A DNA stretch of 32,691 nucleotides from a virus, in IMG/VR virus record IMGVR_UViG_3300032053_009729, positions 1-32,691 of that record; one strand, written 5' to 3'. The notes below the pieces were generated by a model that had not been told where the DNA came from, made no database searches, and worked only from the letters and a program-made list of their open reading frames with translations. Position numbers and translations under genes: made by a program. Numbering within the stretch: position 1 is the stretch's first letter; each line of letters opens with the position of its first letter. Below, one piece after another: positions 843 through 14,609 of the stretch.

Positions 843-1832
843 ATGCCGGGTACAATAGTGCGCATGGACCGCTCTACGATCACTGTAGACGGTACCAACA
901 AATACGAGATAGTCGCAACGTGCGACGTCAAGGGCACGCTGCCTGATGTAGCTATCTTTCTGTTGCAAATAGAGACCTCGGCGGATCCTCGAGATGACAC
1001 CCTACTCCGCGTGGTGGAGATTGCGGATACCGTCGAGGCTAACACCGACCGCGACGCGGTGATTGGCACCGGGGGTAGTCGGTGGAGGTCCCGGTCGGTG
1101 CTGCTGCAATACCCGGATATTGAAACCGCCAACACCGCCTGGAAAGAACTCAGTTCTCGTATAAATACCCTAGTGGGTAACGTAGACACATTCCTAACGG
1201 AGTTCGAGACCGGTGTAGACAACGAGACGATTGTATACCCCACAGCCGACGCCAGTACCAAGACGGCCCTTACGGACGCCTATTTAACCACCAGAGCCGC
1301 GGTTACGGATGCAGAGACAGCGCGAAATGCTGAGGTGTTAAGCTGTAATAACCTAAAGAAAGACATAGATAATACCCTCTTACGCTTGAATGACGCTACA
1401 CCTGACCTGGACAGGTACACGCTAGTCCAGGCGCAGCTCAGCACCTACAGCAGTACCTTAAACAGCGTACAGCCCGTCATATCTGGTGCAGTGAACACCA
1501 TTCGGGCCTTGAACACTGTGTCGGGAGGAACTGCTATTGACGCTATTGAAGCGCAACTACGTGCAGAGGAGGCCCAGCTCGCGGCATTTAGTTCAACCAA
1601 TAGCGGTATATCCATACTATTATCGGGCAGCGTAAGTACGGCAGTGTCCATTCTACAGGCGCGTGTTGCGTCACTGACTAGTCAGCGCACAACGCTAGTC
1701 ACGCAATACAACGCGTGTACTGCGCGTACCGCGGCGCTACAAGCTACGGTAGACACTGCTAGGGCTACGCGTGACGCAGCCCTAGCAAGTCTCCGTGTCG
1801 TATGTCCCGACTATGTACCCCCTACTAGCTAA
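843..1832 (+). CDS. Unknown coiled-coil protein (329 aa), probable virion protein
   Basis: The ATG follows a GGAGAG SD-like site by about 8 bases and lies just after the preceding stop. The first roughly 100 residues look globular and beta-rich (VDGTNKYEIVATCDVKG). From about residue 110 onward the protein is dominated by Ala, Thr, Ser, Leu and Asp with heptad-like spacing, predicting long helices or coiled coil (for example AQLRAEEAQLAAF and ATVDTARATRDAALASLRV). This layout is common in phage fibre, neck or tape-adjacent proteins, but the specific role is unknown. Its 3' end overlaps the 3' end of the convergent minus-strand gene by 8 bases, so no terminator hairpin separates them. Confidence 0.65.
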   Translation: MPGTIVRMDRSTITVDGTNKYEIVATCDVKGTLPDVAIFLLQIETSADPRDDTLLRVVEIADTVEANTDRDAVIGTGGSRWRSRSVLLQYPDIETANTAWKELSSRINTLVGNVDTFLTEFETGVDNETIVYPTADASTKTALTDAYLTTRAAVTDAETARNAEVLSCNNLKKDIDNTLLRLNDATPDLDRYTLVQAQLSTYSSTLNSVQPVISGAVNTIRALNTVSGGTAIDAIEAQLRAEEAQLAAFSSTNSGISILLSGSVSTAVSILQARVASLTSQRTTLVTQYNACTARTAALQATVDTARATRDAALASLRVVCPDYVPPTS

Positions 1833-3351
1833 GTATAACCGGTAGCCGAACCTTGGTATCCGCCGCGGCAAGAGCGGGTATAGGTAGTCGACTGTAGATT
1901 TGCGCTATTTTAGGGGCAGTTAAGTCGGAGTTTATTCGGACGTGGTCTTTAAGAAAGCCGCCACTGTCACACGAATCTTTGCAGGCCACGTAGCGAGAGT
2001 TAGCCCCGTCGACATGCACATGGGCGGAACCATCGCCGCGGAAGGTAGCCTGTATGGAACGCAGATGGTATGTGGGGGATCCGCTTCTACGTAGTGTCGG
2101 TTTATTGCCGAATGCGGCGAGTACGTAGAGTACCCTACGGTCCACCGGGCCTACTTCCGGGCTGTCGGGTAGTTCCGGAAGAACTTCTTGTAGTTCTTTG
2201 TAAGAGTTATATTGCAGATATCGGCTTAGGTTGTTGCCCGCAGAAACCAGCTGATATACCCAGGACCCCGCTGTGTAATACCCGGTCCGCATAAACCCAG
2301 CGTGCAGGTTTTTCACACGTCGCGCAGGACTGAAGGTTTTAGCCAGGACAGTCGTACCTCCCAGCCGTATTAGGTAATCACGCTGTGCGTCAGTAAACCC
2401 GGGCATACTTAAGTAACTTGAAGTATCTAGCCAGTCGTCTAATACACGCTGTACCATCTCTGGGGTACTAGGTGCCGTGCAATCACGTAGAAGTCCGCAA
2501 TCACTGGCAGCCATTGCGCCACGATACCGCGTCGCTAGTTCGCAACTGTTACACTTAGTTGCAACATGACGTACCCTGGCGTGGCGCGTCTTGGCTCTAG
2601 CACTGATCAGCTCTTGCCGCGCCTCTATGTTTACAAAAGTCTGATAATCCCACGGGCGTATGCTTTCCGTGAAATCGTAGGTGGCCGTAGTTTTAGGAGA
2701 GGTGCGTTTCCACTCTCCAGGAAGTGTAACGTACGCGACCTTGCGTAACATTGTGTAGTCTACCGGGAAATCGCGCGACAAAAGGCCCACGGCCCTGAAT
2801 GGTTCAGGTATCCGCGGCGCGACCCATGTAGCTTGGCATTCTTTCGTTGTAAGCAATGCGCAAGGACAGTGGCCTGTTAAGCGCTCTAACCGAGTACACT
2901 CATCGTAAAACGCGTTAGGTACAAAGGGGGTCGCCGCTACTGATGGGTCCTGTACTGATTCTACGAACCAGCCCGTCAGCGATTGTGTCCCCAACCACTC
3001 CCGCGTATTTTGACCTGTGTGTAGGCGGCCTCCATGCGTTGCGACTAGCGTTGGCGTCGGTAACGCGGACATGGAGAAGCTAGCCACGAGAGTATTGGCG
3101 TCTACCCTCAAAGCTAACGCCTGATTGGCTTTAGCGGGCGCGTCCTCCTCACCAACCTCGTGTAGGTTGGCAAGCCGGTGCAGTGCGTGGCGTATATCCG
3201 CGATGTCTATTGCCGCGTCGGTGTCGTGAAAAATGAAACCAGACGGCGCGCGGGGGTATATCCGCAAGTAAGTGGCGGCCTTACGGCTACGTGACGTAAG
3301 GCCGCTCACGAGCGAGGGTGTCATTTGGCAAATACTGTAATACCGTGTCAT
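1825..3351 (-). CDS. Unknown 508-aa Cys-containing protein, third gene of the RT operon
   Basis: The ATG lies two bases after the TAG of the reverse-transcriptase gene, so it is almost certainly co-transcribed with it. I recognise no family. Visible features are a cysteine cluster of the form CxxC-x14-C-x5-C around residues 268-292, an earlier CPC plus Cys group around residues 160-175, and many Arg/Lys-rich stretches. No Walker motif, HNH or DxD-type nuclease signature is obvious and no membrane segment is seen. In bacterial retrons the gene next to the RT is usually the effector. Here the phage origin leaves open a replication, repair, anti-defence or cargo role. It converges on the plus-strand coiled-coil gene with an 8-bp overlap. 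Confidence 0.7.
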   Translation of the reverse strand: MTRYYSICQMTPSLVSGLTSRSRKAATYLRIYPRAPSGFIFHDTDAAIDIADIRHALHRLANLHEVGEEDAPAKANQALALRVDANTLVASFSMSALPTPTLVATHGGRLHTGQNTREWLGTQSLTGWFVESVQDPSVAATPFVPNAFYDECTRLERLTGHCPCALLTTKECQATWVAPRIPEPFRAVGLLSRDFPVDYTMLRKVAYVTLPGEWKRTSPKTTATYDFTESIRPWDYQTFVNIEARQELISARAKTRHARVRHVATKCNSCELATRYRGAMAASDCGLLRDCTAPSTPEMVQRVLDDWLDTSSYLSMPGFTDAQRDYLIRLGGTTVLAKTFSPARRVKNLHAGFMRTGYYTAGSWVYQLVSAGNNLSRYLQYNSYKELQEVLPELPDSPEVGPVDRRVLYVLAAFGNKPTLRRSGSPTYHLRSIQATFRGDGSAHVHVDGANSRYVACKDSCDSGGFLKDHVRINSDLTAPKIAQIYSRLPIPALAAADTKVRLPVILS

Positions 3352-3353
3352 TA

Positions 3354-4439
3354 CTATTCCGCAGCGCTGAGTTCAGCGGGGTTGGCGCAGGCACGTTTGT
3401 TCTGAATAGGGGCTTCGTTACGCGCGCTACATGCGGCTAGATACTGGGCATTTAGCTGCGCTGATTTGACAGGACTGATCATATGGTAGTAGGAGATCTG
3501 CCCTTCAATTTGAGACTTCAACTTATCCGCGGAGTCCATACCCATGGTTGCCGCCACGGCCGCGAAACCTTCGTGATGGCAGTGGTGAATACGCGCGCGC
3601 ATCTTACGGAACTGCAACCGCATGACATTCGGCTTCTCATTAATAGTCATGCCAAGAAGCCGTTGCTGCCTCCCTGACCTTGCCACGCGCAATTTCTTCT
3701 TGTTTATCTGGTAACCCGCGGCTCGGATTATTTTCACGATCGCTTTGATGAAGTTGTTGGTCTTCTTACGATCGAGGCGCTCGTGACTAGAAAACGCCAA
3801 ATCGTCCGCGTAGCGCGTGTACGCCATGCCCCAGCGCGAGCAGAGGTCTAGCACCTGCTTATCTATGCGGTGGTGTGCCACCCAGTTGCAGATAGCACCT
3901 GACGTGGGCGCCCCCTGCGGCACCACAAAGCGCTTCCCGTAGGGGAAGGTCATGGGCACTGTCATCAGGTCCGACAACAGGCTAGCTACGCGGTGCGCGT
4001 ATCCGAACTCGTCTTGAATGGCACGCCGCACCCAGGAGCGGCGCGTACTAGAAAAGAAATCTTTCAAATCCAACACGATGAGGATGGGCTTCCCCGCGTG
4101 GACTAGCGCGCTGTCCCGAGTAGTGCGGCCCTGCACATACGCGGCAACGTGGTCCGGGTAAGTGAGAGGCGTTAGATACCGCTTCAATACACGCGTTTGT
4201 ACAAACTTGAGCATGCGCTCAGGCGCATGGATGGTGCGGCGTCCCCCCGATTTCTTTGGGATCGAGTGCACCTTATACATAGACTCGCGTTTCACGATCA
4301 TGTGCATAAGGGTGCGGTTGCGGATGCCCAGCGAGTGCGCGAGCGACATGCCGTCGAACACCTTGGGTAGGGGTTCTAGGATCTTTTCGAAATCCGGGAG
4401 ATCTATAACCTCCAAGGAGGTTTGGTTATAGGCAGCCAT
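3354..4439 (-). CDS. Retron-type reverse transcriptase
   Basis: This 361-residue protein makes cDNA from an RNA template. Motifs in order are IPKKSGGRRTI at 60-70 (fingers), SALVH at 110-114 (at the place of the retron NAxxH motif), DLKDFFSS at 124-131 (first catalytic Asp), PQGAPTSG at 174-181, and YADD at 210-213 (catalytic Asp pair) within YTRYADDLAFSS. Next come NKKKLRVARSG at 246-256 and LLGMTINEKPNV at 261-272, where retron RTs usually read VTGLxVN. Length suits a stand-alone retron RT. There is no maturase or endonuclease domain (against a group II intron) and no SQ motif (against a DGR). The ATG overlaps the upstream stop (TAATG) and follows a strong AGGAGG site. RT family is near certain; retron function is inferred. 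Confidence 0.93.
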   Translation of the reverse strand: MAAYNQTSLEVIDLPDFEKILEPLPKVFDGMSLAHSLGIRNRTLMHMIVKRESMYKVHSIPKKSGGRRTIHAPERMLKFVQTRVLKRYLTPLTYPDHVAAYVQGRTTRDSALVHAGKPILIVLDLKDFFSSTRRSWVRRAIQDEFGYAHRVASLLSDLMTVPMTFPYGKRFVVPQGAPTSGAICNWVAHHRIDKQVLDLCSRWGMAYTRYADDLAFSSHERLDRKKTNNFIKAIVKIIRAAGYQINKKKLRVARSGRQQRLLGMTINEKPNVMRLQFRKMRARIHHCHHEGFAAVAATMGMDSADKLKSQIEGQISYYHMISPVKSAQLNAQYLAACSARNEAPIQNKRACANPAELSAAE

Positions 4440-5188
4440 TAAAACTCCACCTCCTGTTCGTCGGCTTGTTGGGCGGTCTCGAGGTCCCCCTCGTCCACGC
4501 CTTCCGGGACTGCGGCGTCTACCGCACGTGAAGTGCCGATATCGTTGAAATTCAAAGCCTTAAGACAGACGGGCTGTCCAGGAGTACAAAGCCCCTGCAA
4601 CTGCAGTAACTGGCGCGGGCAAATGTTACAGATAGGCGAGACGCGGTCGTTAGGGGCTTCCAACGGGGTGGCCAGGTACGCAAACTCACTTATGGCCTGT
4701 TTGGACGAGGCTTTCTGAATGACCTTGAGCGGGCGTTTGCTTCGGGTGCGCGTTCGACGAACGGGCGTGCCCGCTTCGAAGTATTTTGACGCGGCCAGAT
4801 AGCGAGGATTGAGCTTCTTGCGAATCTTGGACGTGAGTACGGGAACGACTACAACCCGCTCCTCCATATTATAAACCGTCAAGACGTGCGTCTGCCACCA
4901 CGTAGCCACATCCGTTTCGGTGGTCTTGCGGCCATCTAGATCAATAGGCTGGTTTAACAGAGCGTCGTCTCGTCGGTGGCGGTACGCGCTAATGGTCTTG
5001 GGTCGCAGCTTTACGATTGCGGACATCAAGGTTGTCTCACAAGGAAACACCAGCGCGTAGCCGAAAATCTTGGGGATGTCTGTCGCGCGGCCCTTTGGAA
5101 AGAAATACAATTTGTCGAAAGGAACTGTAATGCCTGCGGCACTCCGGTCTACCTTAACAACTAAAACTTTGTTCGACGTATCTGTCAC
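4439..5188 (-). CDS. Unknown 249-aa basic/Cys-motif protein, first gene of the RT operon
   Basis: The start is GTG with a good AAGGAG SD five bases upstream. The product is not recognised. Residues 1-60 look like a beta-rich fold. A strongly basic patch, RRTRTRSKRPLK, lies around residues 143-155 and may contact nucleic acid. A CxxCP...C...C cluster follows near residues 186-207, and the tail is acidic (Glu/Asp/Gln-rich). The stop overlaps the RT start as TAATG, so production is coupled to the RT. In several known retrons an accessory gene sits between the ncRNA and the RT, and this gene occupies that place. A role as effector, RNA-binding partner or regulator is inference only. Confidence 0.75.
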   Translation of the reverse strand: MTDTSNKVLVVKVDRSAAGITVPFDKLYFFPKGRATDIPKIFGYALVFPCETTLMSAIVKLRPKTISAYRHRRDDALLNQPIDLDGRKTTETDVATWWQTHVLTVYNMEERVVVVPVLTSKIRKKLNPRYLAASKYFEAGTPVRRTRTRSKRPLKVIQKASSKQAISEFAYLATPLEAPNDRVSPICNICPRQLLQLQGLCTPGQPVCLKALNFNDIGTSRAVDAAVPEGVDEGDLETAQQADEQEVEF

Positions 5189-5228
5189 TACAACTCCTTG
5201 GCGGATCGCCAGGTAAACTCGTGGAGAA

Positions 5229-5288
5229 GGTAAGTAAGTACGTAGCCTGTAGGTAGTTTATCCTACAGGCTACGTACCCACTTATACC
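5229..5288 (-). ncRNA. Long hairpin in the leader of the RT operon
   Basis: A perfect 16-bp inverted repeat (5238-5253 with 5262-5277) encloses an 8-nt loop. Read as minus-strand RNA, the stem continues through two G-U wobble pairs, four more Watson-Crick pairs, a 2-nt bulge and a final GGU/ACC. This gives about 25 pairs over 60 nt. On the plus strand the two wobble positions become A/C mismatches, so the fold favours minus-strand RNA, which is the leader of the Cys-motif/RT operon. No U-tract follows, so it is not a classical terminator. It could be part of a retron-like msd, an mRNA-stabilising leader or a protein-binding operator. Confidence 0.5.
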
Positions 5289-5293
5289 GAATT

Positions 5294-5325
5294 GGGGGGA
5301 GCTTTTAGAATCAGTAGCTCTCCCC
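5294..5325. other. Hairpin spanning the stop codon of the VWA gene
   Basis: GGGGGGAGCT (5294-5303) pairs with AGCTCTCCCC (5316-5325) around a 12-nt loop that contains the VWA stop codon (TGA at 5313-5311, minus strand). Plus-strand RNA has all ten pairs with one G-U. Minus-strand RNA has one A-C mismatch. There is no U-tract on either side, so an intrinsic terminator is only weakly supported. It may protect mRNA 3' ends or act with the neighbouring long hairpin. Confidence 0.3.
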
Positions 5326-10702: not shown

Positions 10703-10706
10703 AAGA

Positions 10707-10729
10707 AACGGGCCCCTGACGGGCCCGTT
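10707..10729. terminator. Terminator hairpin between convergent genes
   Basis: AACGGGCCC (10707-10715) and GGGCCCGTT (10721-10729) form a perfect 9-bp GC-rich stem with loop CTGAC. On the minus strand the stem runs into GTTTCTTTT, a good U-rich tail, so it should terminate the MoxR transcript. On the plus strand the tail is weak, though the position right after the 225-aa gene suggests bidirectional use. Confidence 0.8.
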
Positions 10730-10739
10730 ACTCCACAGC

Positions 10740-12100: not shown

Positions 12101-13783
12101 GTGAAACTCATGGATTTAGAAAAGCCTGATTTGATAGTACGCCGGTCGGATTGGGCACAAACGTTGATATGCCTAGACGGGCACCCTTTCTCACTACAAG
12201 ACTACCCCTTTTACAAAGCTATTTATGACGGCTCTTACGACGGTCTTTTACTCAAGACGGCGCGTCAGGTAGCCAAGTCCACTACACTCTCAAATTTCCT
12301 AATAGCAGAGGCGTGCACTAAGCCCCACTGGAAGAGCCTGTTCATAGCGCCCAGCCAAGAGCAGACCACCAAGTTCTCCCAGACACGTGTGGGCAAGACG
12401 GTTTTCTACTCGCCTGAAATACGCTCACGCTGGGTTTCGCAAGAACTCTCTAGCCGCGTCTTTCAAAAGATGTTTACGAACGGCAGTGAAATCGCGTTCT
12501 CCTACGCTAGTGACGACCCTGACCGTGTCCGCGGCGTATCAGCGGACCGCGTCGCGTACGATGAGGTCCAGGACATTCAATACGATGCGGTCATCCCCGT
12601 GGTGAACGAGTGCATGTCTAATAGCGATTTCGGCTACGAGACATACTGCGGGACGCCTAAGTCTATGGAAAATACCATAGAGCAGCTTTGGCAGTGGAGT
12701 ACTCAAACCGAATGGGTAATAAAATGCACGGGCTGCAATACTTCGCAGTATTTCGTGGATGATCGCTGTCTGGGTAAGAAGGGGCCTATTTGCTTGAAGT
12801 GCGGCAAATACGTTGATGTACGAAATGCACAGTGGGTAGACACCAACGTCTTCAGCAAGAACTACACAGGAAAGCGCCTGAAGGGGTTTCATGTTCCACA
12901 GGTAATTCTCCCCAAGAACGTTCCTGCGTCCATGCCCTCGGACCTACGCAATCAGGACTTAGCCCAGAAACGCTGGGCGCGTATCTTGGAAAAACACGCC
13001 GCATACCCCACGTCGAAATTCAAGAACGAAGTGATAGGCATCTCCGATGCGGTCGGTACGCGCCTGATCTCTAAAGAACAGTTGGAAGCTCTTTGCTTAC
13101 CGTATGAAATCAGCGAATACCCCACCAACAACTTGCTCATGCAGGAATTGCGCGGTGTGGTCGCGGGCGTAGACTGGTCTGGCGGAGGGGCCAACGGCGC
13201 GTCTAGCACCGTCCTGTGGATCTGGGGTATCTGCCAGGGCGGAACTATGCATAACTTCCGCCTAAAAACGCTGTACTACAAGATATACCCAGAAACTAAC
13301 CCAATTTCTGGCGGGGTGGTAGATCACATCTGTGAAGTGTGTAACCGCTACGAGGTGCAGTTGGTCATTGGAGACGCGGGTGAAGGTGCCCTACCCAACG
13401 CTAATTTGCGTGAACGGTTAGGCGCCCATCGCGCGATGCAGGTGCAGTACCGCGGAGTGGCGAGTTCAGGCGGTGGCTCCAATAGCCGTCCCTTCTACTG
13501 GAACAAAACCGACCGCTTCATCGCGGAACGCACCACCATGATCGACCATTACTTCATGTATCTAATACGCGAAGGGGTGATATTCCCGAACATACGCCAG
13601 ATGCAGCAGCCCATAAAGCACCTGCTGGCAGAGTACGAAGAAGTCACTAACAACGGGCGCAAGGTCTGGCGGCACGCACATAGCCAGCCAGATGACGCTC
13701 TGCATGCGCAGATATTTGGGTGGATGGCCGCCAAGTTCGTAACCATGGACCCCATGTTTACTTACAACGGCACGGCTCCTTGA
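12101..13783 (+). CDS. Terminase large subunit
   Basis: This is the DNA-packaging motor ATPase and nuclease. The 560 residues show a Walker A-type segment, TARQVAKST (53-61), Walker B VAYDE with D154/E155, and a coupling-motif-like TYCGTP near 181. The C-terminal RNase H-fold nuclease supplies acidic residues in GVDWSGG (about 357), VIGDAG and PDDALHAQ near the end. Between the two domains is a zinc ribbon, C209/C212 and C231/C234, as in GpA-like terminases. The start is GTG at 12101; an ATG at 12110 is an alternative and neither has a clear SD. It is transcribed divergently from the MoxR gene and followed by a large structured non-coding element. No small terminase subunit is visible nearby. 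Confidence 0.93.
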   Translation: MKLMDLEKPDLIVRRSDWAQTLICLDGHPFSLQDYPFYKAIYDGSYDGLLLKTARQVAKSTTLSNFLIAEACTKPHWKSLFIAPSQEQTTKFSQTRVGKTVFYSPEIRSRWVSQELSSRVFQKMFTNGSEIAFSYASDDPDRVRGVSADRVAYDEVQDIQYDAVIPVVNECMSNSDFGYETYCGTPKSMENTIEQLWQWSTQTEWVIKCTGCNTSQYFVDDRCLGKKGPICLKCGKYVDVRNAQWVDTNVFSKNYTGKRLKGFHVPQVILPKNVPASMPSDLRNQDLAQKRWARILEKHAAYPTSKFKNEVIGISDAVGTRLISKEQLEALCLPYEISEYPTNNLLMQELRGVVAGVDWSGGGANGASSTVLWIWGICQGGTMHNFRLKTLYYKIYPETNPISGGVVDHICEVCNRYEVQLVIGDAGEGALPNANLRERLGAHRAMQVQYRGVASSGGGSNSRPFYWNKTDRFIAERTTMIDHYFMYLIREGVIFPNIRQMQQPIKHLLAEYEEVTNNGRKVWRHAHSQPDDALHAQIFGWMAAKFVTMDPMFTYNGTAP

Positions 13784-13789
13784 GTTAGC

Positions 13790-13979
13790 GAGATACCCCC
13801 TGCTTAGCTGCAATGTCACTACCATCGGTAGGGACATTCCGCATCCCCGGGCGTGACGGACTTCCGTAACTGACAGCAGTGCTTCACAGCTGTCAGTTCC
13901 GGACGTCGGTTACGTCACGTCTTGCGAAAACCAACCGCGACGGTACATCGCGCTAGTTGAGAAGGCCAGGGGGTATCTC
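13790..13979 (+). ncRNA. Candidate structured RNA with closing inverted repeat (retron ncRNA-like)
   Basis: This 190-nt non-coding stretch between convergent genes is closed by a perfect 13-bp inverted repeat, GAGATACCCCCTG (13790-13802) with CAGGGGGTATCTC (13967-13979). Inside are a 27-nt hairpin with loop ATC (13812-13838), a 67-nt hairpin (13850-13916) and a CGCGA/TCGCG hairpin (about 13932-13959). In the 67-nt hairpin 28 of 32 symmetric positions pair, mismatches face each other one to one and the loop is CTT. TTAGC follows the left arm, as in the retron Eco1 branch site. Strand is uncertain. Wobble pairs and TTAGC favour plus, whereas a TGGTATAAG box upstream on the minus strand would start RNA exactly at G13979. 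Alternatives are a packaging site or a transcription-stop structure. Confidence 0.45.
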
Positions 13980-14000: not shown

Positions 14001-14609
14001 TCACGCGCTTACGGCTTCGCCCTCGTTAGTGAGCGGTTCAGTCTGCGTAACAGCCACGCGGGGCTTCAGCTGATATTTGAACATTTTGTTCTGTATAACG
14101 AACCCGGGGTATATCGCCACCAAGGACTCAGCTGGAGCCTGTATGGAGCGCACGGCAGACATACGCAGTCGCAGCGTACGCGCGACGTTTAGTATGGGCA
14201 ACAGCCTCAGGATCCCCTTAGTATCTTCGAAATGAACGATACATGGATCCAGAAGCAGCACGTCGTCATCCCTCCGCTCTAGGGTGATGCCCATGATGGG
14301 CCCCTCGACGGTTCCAAACAATTCGATGGCGCGCGCTACGGGGCAGTCGCGGTCGTCCTGGTATTGCGCGGACGTAACATACGTAGCCGAAAAGATGTTC
14401 TCCGTCTCTATCCAATCAGAGTAGGGGCGCGTGTCTTTCGGCAGGTTCTTCATCCAATCAGTAGTGGTAGTGTCAATGATGGTGCCGTTGGGCAGCTTCT
14501 GCACAGGGACCCATTGCTTACGCGACTCCGTAGTTAAGTACAGCGTGTACTTACCGCCGAATTTCTCAAAGGTTTTGGTTTCATACAAATTACTAGAGGG
14601 CTCAGTCAC
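14001..14609 (-). CDS. Unknown 202-aa protein
   Basis: The start is GTG with an AGGAGAG site about 5 bases upstream, and it overlaps the micro-ORF's TGA as GTGA. The family is not recognised. The protein is beta-rich with many Thr/Val/Ile residues, has two cysteines (in DRDCPVARAIELFG and LLDPCIVHFED) and no membrane segment. The central part, GPIMGITLERRDDDVLLLDPC, resembles a compact beta barrel, but no assignment is justified. It is the last gene of the replication block, downstream of the polymerase, and ends 21 bases before the large structured element. A replication accessory role is inferred from position only. Confidence 0.65.
   Translation of the reverse strand: MTEPSSNLYETKTFEKFGGKYTLYLTTESRKQWVPVQKLPNGTIIDTTTTDWMKNLPKDTRPYSDWIETENIFSATYVTSAQYQDDRDCPVARAIELFGTVEGPIMGITLERRDDDVLLLDPCIVHFEDTKGILRLLPILNVARTLRLRMSAVRSIQAPAESLVAIYPGFVIQNKMFKYQLKPRVAVTQTEPLTNEGEAVSA

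Follow-up and report, generated by a model that had tools for sequence, protein, structure and literature searches.

In known retrons, the template RNA is encoded next to the reverse transcriptase (RT), and their role is mostly to defend bacteria against phages. Diversity-generating retroelements similarly bring together an RT, in some cases from a phage, and a non-coding template repeat, of which a target gene holds a variable-repeat copy. In retrons, the inner end of the closing stem most commonly carries TAGC as the context of the priming guanosine, and the stem-loop bound by the Eco1 RT has 8 bp and a UUU loop (PMC6868368; PMC11754653). That an RT can use a separate structured RNA as its template is already an established idea for DRT2 and other defence RTs (PMC12039810). 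Phages also carry large structured RNAs of unknown function, such as GOLLD and ROOL (PMC12286853).

Here we describe a structured element of about 190 nt (13790–13979) in the window, by which we mean the whole stretch analyzed, a 32.7-kb viral contig. The element resembles a retron non-coding RNA (ncRNA; msr-msd, e.g. Retron-Eco1/Ec86) in its paired ends, in the triloop hairpin after the 5' arm, in its one long imperfect hairpin, and in the presence of a retron-type RT in the same genome. In addition, the arms of distant members of its family end at U(A/C)|GC, like the context of the retron priming guanosine. Unlike retrons, the RNA lies about 6–9 kb from the RT instead of in one cassette, relatives carry several tandem units, the RT is a core phage gene and not part of a mobile defence cassette, and the window element itself lacks the priming context, with LLG replacing VTG in the phage RT. 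GOLLD and ROOL are likewise large, highly structured phage RNAs, but the window element has no Rfam match and does not adjoin tRNA genes, and the phage elements have a unit architecture with closing arms and a link to an RT-bearing clade. DRT2 differs in that the phage RT is of the retron type, scoring 36 bits against a DRT2 cut-off of 390, and in that the RNA is not adjacent to the RT. A diversity-generating retroelement was considered and rejected: the 32.7-kb record contains no second copy of the element, and the RT profiles point to retrons.

A structured element between the terminase and polymerase genes

The element sits in a 217-nt gap between the stop codon of the terminase large subunit gene (12101–13783, plus strand), which adjoins it, and the end, at 14001, of a minus-strand gene for a 202-aa protein (J202; 14001–14609), beyond which lie genes for a PolA-type DNA polymerase and a primase. 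The locus of the element is the 3' end of the DNA polymerase A gene or of its neighbour J202, convergent with the terminase gene. A search with the J202 protein returned no match. Elsewhere in the window, at about 10704–10736, a clear bidirectional terminator-like hairpin (AACGGGCCC...GGGCCCGTT) separates convergent genes.

As the first-pass annotation had described, the element is bounded by a perfect 13-bp inverted repeat, whose arms lie 164 nt apart, and encloses nested hairpins. On the minus strand, the 5' closing arm is GAGATACCCCCTG (13967–13979, a1-like) and the 3' closing arm is its perfect complement, CAGGGGGTATCTC (13790–13802, a2-like); complementary ends of about 8–30 bases are expected of a retron ncRNA. 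Eight nucleotides inside the closing stem, the hairpin AACUAGCGCGAUG-UAC-CGUCGCGGUUGGUU (13929–13958), with a 3-nt loop, appeared in both the minimum free energy (MFE) and the centroid structures of the minus strand. The folds of both strands contained a long imperfect hairpin, msd-like in shape (approximately 13852–13918), and a 27-nt hairpin with a 3-nt loop (13812–13838). The long hairpin is centred at 13882–13884, within an inverted repeat (13837–13881/13885–13929) that is 73% complementary.

Folding of both strands against shuffled sequences, a check proposed in the first-pass annotation, gave an MFE of –98.4 kcal/mol for the plus strand (shuffles, –59.8 ± 4.4; z = –8.8) and of –97.2 for the minus strand (z = –7.9), and for neither strand did any of 200 shuffles fold as well. 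The element was the top-ranked intergenic stretch of the window for structure. Intrinsic terminators combine a GC-rich hairpin with a T-run; no T-run follows either arm of the window element. No Rfam family matched the window or 21 related loci at the gathering score, and lax settings yielded weak, chance-level matches to animal RNA families and nothing credible. A blastn search with the element against 50,697 phage records returned no match.

Strand and promoter-like motif

The minus strand carries an extended –10 promoter-like motif, TGGTATAAG (13994–13986). The six bases after it (tgccta) lead to G13979, at which the closing stem begins. The same arrangement, with TGGTA[TCA]AAG 5–6 nt ahead of the GAG that opens the closing stem, was found in the window and in the related loci L005 (TGGTAAAAG), L006, L008, and L011. 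In a slightly looser form, TG[GT]TA[TCA]AAG, the motif was present within about 25 nt of the stop codon of the last gene (PolA or J202) in 22 of about 43 related loci; with a background of 0.04 per strand-kb, well under one occurrence would be expected beside these stop codons across all of the loci. Sites of GGTATAAG were intergenic in 21 of 43 cases, an enrichment of about five times over the 9.4% of the sequence that is intergenic, and most lay 15–275 nt upstream of co-directional gene starts. We read the motif as the putative promoter of a phage transcription class.

The plus strand, first suspected as the functional one, was rejected because it has no promoter motif and because the wobble pairs are those of the minus strand; the question of strand is not decided by whole-fold energies alone. 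The TTAGC that had been pointed out inside the left arm is present at 13804–13808, but relatives do not conserve it, and the promoter motif is on the other strand. The element looks like a promoter-driven RNA gene on the minus strand, whose transcription we infer; the predicted RNA would have its 5' end at 13979, and its 3' arm would end at 13790.

Covariation and variation in close relatives

The putative RNA gene evolves fast. In the subgroup of phages to which the window belongs, the elements between the terminase gene and J202 have GAG...CTC as closing arms and range in size from 190 nt in the window through about 145–150 nt (L008 type), 135 nt (L005), and 120 nt (L011) to 86 nt (L006). 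With two bulged bases of L005 left out, the first nine pairs of the closing stem were all kept across five independent sequences, five of the nine through two-sided changes. The first-pass annotation had made its reading depend on covariation among relatives, and both the closing stem and a conserved hairpin do covary. On the minus strand of L005 and L006, the 3' arm is followed by a T-run, as it is by a shorter one in L011, but not in the window or L008. In L003, whose RT is the nearest to that of the window (73%), a 45-nt bidirectional terminator hairpin with its T-run is all that occupies this place.

At the inner end of the 5' arm, the minus strand of the window reads ...CCCCCTG|GCC, and neither the TAGC priming context nor its known variants occur there. 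The closest relatives likewise have no UAGC where the closing stem ends inwards, and counts for the window's group of loci showed no excess (2 observed, 1.9 expected). A separate observation concerns the L006 RNA (1857–1975), which contains a 12–15-nt complement of AACAAGGAGAAA, a sequence that immediately precedes an ATG at three further positions of that genome; such a Shine-Dalgarno complement was not common to the other members tested.

Tandem retron-like units in distant relatives

In distant relatives, the gap contains 160–1100 nt of structured sequence, in many of them repeated as units. The units of L064, L065, and L083 are joined by (G)ACTAG, and each contains, besides a variable hairpin and a GGCA...UGCGUG hairpin, one with a triloop. 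In the triloop hairpin, all 70 of 70 pairs were kept, 10 cells with a two-sided change, and about 10 wobble cells would become A.C mismatches if read from the other strand. Hairpins of at least 6 bp with exactly three loop bases were found 88 times in 19.9 kb of gap sequence, compared with 6.0 in shuffles; larger loops were far less enriched. The gaps of the clade are rich in G(NNA)C triloops.

The array units have end-pairing arms ending at U(A/C)|GC, followed in nearly all cases 6–24 nt further on by a triloop hairpin and then by variable hairpins. Typical units are AACUUUUACUAGUC|GCUA...GACUAGUAAAAGUU in L082 and UACUAGUA|GC...UACUAGUA in L069. Representative units fold as a closed stem with the triloop hairpin plus further hairpins, and the hallmark of the priming context was found in L044, L056, L066, L067, L069, L074, and L082. 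We defined a retron layout as arms of 7–14 bp, the 5' member ending at [UC][AC]|G[CG], accompanied by a triloop hairpin no more than 45 nt away. This layout occurred in 19 units on the minus strand and 7 on the plus strand, compared with 0.72 ± 0.74 in shuffles (maximum, 2), a comparison that somewhat overstates the strength of the result, since the definition was drawn up after the arrays had been viewed.

The same variable hairpin unit is shared among the gaps of L064, L065, and L083, and L064 has a different number of units from L065, as would be expected if recombination at the CTAG joints added or removed units. L218 (G048 32661–33881, minus strand) is a non-coding RNA region of about 1.2 kb that adjoins PolA; it holds two tandem units, each about 170 nt long and nearly identical to the other. 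The idea that phages of the G048/L062 type lack the RNA proved wrong: it is located two genes further on, beside the polymerase gene.

The reverse transcriptase and its operon

The proposed user of the RNA is an RT of 361 aa (3354–4439, minus strand; Pfam RVT_1) with intact YADD and QGAPTSG motifs. It matched the PADLOC model RT_XIII with 246 bits (1.7e-73), and its best PDB profile matches were retron RTs, from 3.1e-30 downwards; the retron-type assignment made in the first-pass annotation was thus borne out, its nearest characterized relatives being retron RTs. Against the NCBIfam St85 model it scored 197.9, below the cut-off of 235. Its region-Y triplet reads LLG, where VTG is expected; some known retrons also vary in this triplet (PMC6868368).

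The RT gene is flanked on the minus strand by genes for a 249-aa protein (4439–5188), which has no family match and has a conserved, zinc-finger-like C-x2-C / C / C pattern, and for a 508-aa protein (1825–3351) with invariant cysteines and no known family. Both partners are conserved alongside the RT across the clade; the AlphaFold model of the 508-aa protein (mean pLDDT, 57.7) was too poor to use. Together with a preceding VWA/DUF2201 protein, they form an operon in the order VWA-E249-RT-D508, and in nearly all loci the genes overlap or are separated by a few nucleotides, with no msr-msd in the RT cassette. The operon therefore leaves no room for an ncRNA in cis, and we rejected a cis ncRNA beside the RT across nearly all of the relatives. 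The only RT-operon gap in the window (5189–5310) holds the promoter-like motif GGTATAAG (5281–5288, minus strand), 96 nt upstream of the genes for the 249-aa protein, the RT, and the 508-aa protein, and a hairpin leader; the motif overlaps a perfect 16-bp hairpin (z = –6.7).

Distribution of the RT and the RNA

The window phage belongs to an uncultivated clade of large phages (contigs reach about 200 kb) that has a retron-type RT, syntenic among its members, as a core gene. The clade was assembled by terminase and RT searches, and several contigs measure 180–198 kb. Of the 17 contigs of the close group, 8 encoded the RT; those without a match are short or end near the terminase gene, so that the RT position lies beyond the sequence. 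The RT was also present in 21 of 34 contigs of the wider set, and three array-bearing contigs gave weaker matches. On contigs that include both, the RT and terminase genes are about 5.5–9 kb apart on opposite strands, and the RT is about 6–9 kb from the RNA locus in the clade (about 9 kb in the window). Among terminase relatives at about 30% identity, none of seven contigs of 95–204 kb encoded the RT, and relatives at this distance had no gap RNA of this kind.

L003, L013, L060, and L071 have no RNA element despite having the same terminase. In G033 and G041, the RT is present and the polymerase and terminase genes abut; genome-wide structure ranking of these two revealed no single dominant RNA. 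Terminase relatives were not found in bacterial and archaeal contigs representing one genome per species, and the clade is therefore left without a host.

Discussion

We conclude that the window element is a single-unit representative of a family in which the other members resemble tandem retron RNAs. At this locus, most members of the RT-encoding large-phage clade carry a putative structured RNA gene, which in distant members takes the form of a tandem array of retron-like units, each with an a1 arm, U(A/C)|GC, a triloop hairpin, variable hairpins, and an a2 arm. The window RNA would start at 13979, pair its two ends, hold three hairpins, and serve in trans, over about 9 kb, as primer-template for the core retron-type RT. 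We consider it modestly probable that the element is a minus-strand RNA gene of this retron-like-array family and most likely a trans primer-template for the core RT; binding by the RT and cDNA synthesis we infer, as we do the ability of the single window unit to work without the TAGC context. Service to the RT in trans is the best explanation, but one that draws on architecture and on the co-distribution of RT and RNA, the latter confounded by shared ancestry. Caution is required because L003, G033, and G041 encode the RT with no comparable RNA at this locus, and because UAGC is missing from the window element.

Two suggestions of the first-pass annotation accordingly survive in part. The likeness to a retron ncRNA extends to the paired ends, the triloop hairpin, and the long imperfect hairpin, and the window element has no further hallmarks. 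Action of the RT on the RNA in trans finds support at the family level, in the lack of an ncRNA in cis and the retron-like units of distant members, but not in the window element, which lacks the TAGC context. At the family level, the sequences suggest that the element may work like a retron RNA; we do not claim it as a retron, because cassette linkage and priming context were both tested and neither was found for the window element. More tentatively, these phages may possess a retron as a core component, with a four-gene RT operon free of ncRNA and a separate promoter-driven RNA gene expanded into arrays of units.

A phage lineage with a core retron-type RT, no RNA in cis, and an array-forming RNA gene would, if this is true, reverse the usual relation between retrons and phages. 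Template and enzyme could then be uncoupled and multiplied, a single RT could produce several distinct cDNAs in the course of infection, and retron engineering would gain a natural trans-acting, multi-template design. Even if the link to the RT fails, the family constitutes an undescribed kind of phage RNA gene with its own promoter motif and measurable covariation.

A discrete structured RNA gene is well supported irrespective of the RT. The RNA, which adjoins the terminase gene, might have a structural or regulatory role unrelated to the RT, whether as an ornate RNA like GOLLD and ROOL, precedents for such RNAs in phages, as a packaging RNA like phi29 pRNA, or as a small RNA pairing with ribosome-binding sites, with the RT acting on some other substrate. 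The complement of AACAAGGAGAAA in the L006 RNA fits the last of these, but it is missing from the other members tested. We consider an RT-unrelated role unlikely, though deserving of serious attention: no Rfam family matches, the retron-like layout of the distant arrays would be left unexplained, and no other RNA partner is available to the RT in cis.

An elaborated bidirectional transcription terminator, or 3'-end stabilizer, between two convergent operons is decidedly improbable. Such a device would suit the convergent position, the plain bidirectional terminator of L003, the second hairpin of this kind between convergent genes in the window, and the minus-strand T-runs of L005, L006, and, in shorter form, L011. 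However, neither side of the element has a T-run in the window or L008, the promoter motif stands exactly where it would start the element, arrays of 300–1100 nt far exceed the needs of a terminator, and the internal hairpins are conserved in kind. A DNA-level site for packaging (cos/pac) or replication origin, which the neighbouring terminase and polymerase genes and the large inverted repeats might suggest, is very improbable given wobble pairs on one strand only, a promoter motif, no conserved DNA motif in the element itself across relatives, and the absence of the element from four loci (L003, L013, L060, and L071) with the same terminase.

Features of the RT also count against the trans primer-template reading. 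Besides the LLG triplet of the window RT, the catalytic motif is YSDN and not YxDD in five phages represented by independent contigs (L256, L257, L258, L259, and L247). These are G040, G048, G038, and G046, which have retron-like arrays or related gap RNA, and G034. The occurrence of YSDN in independent contigs suggests constraint rather than decay.
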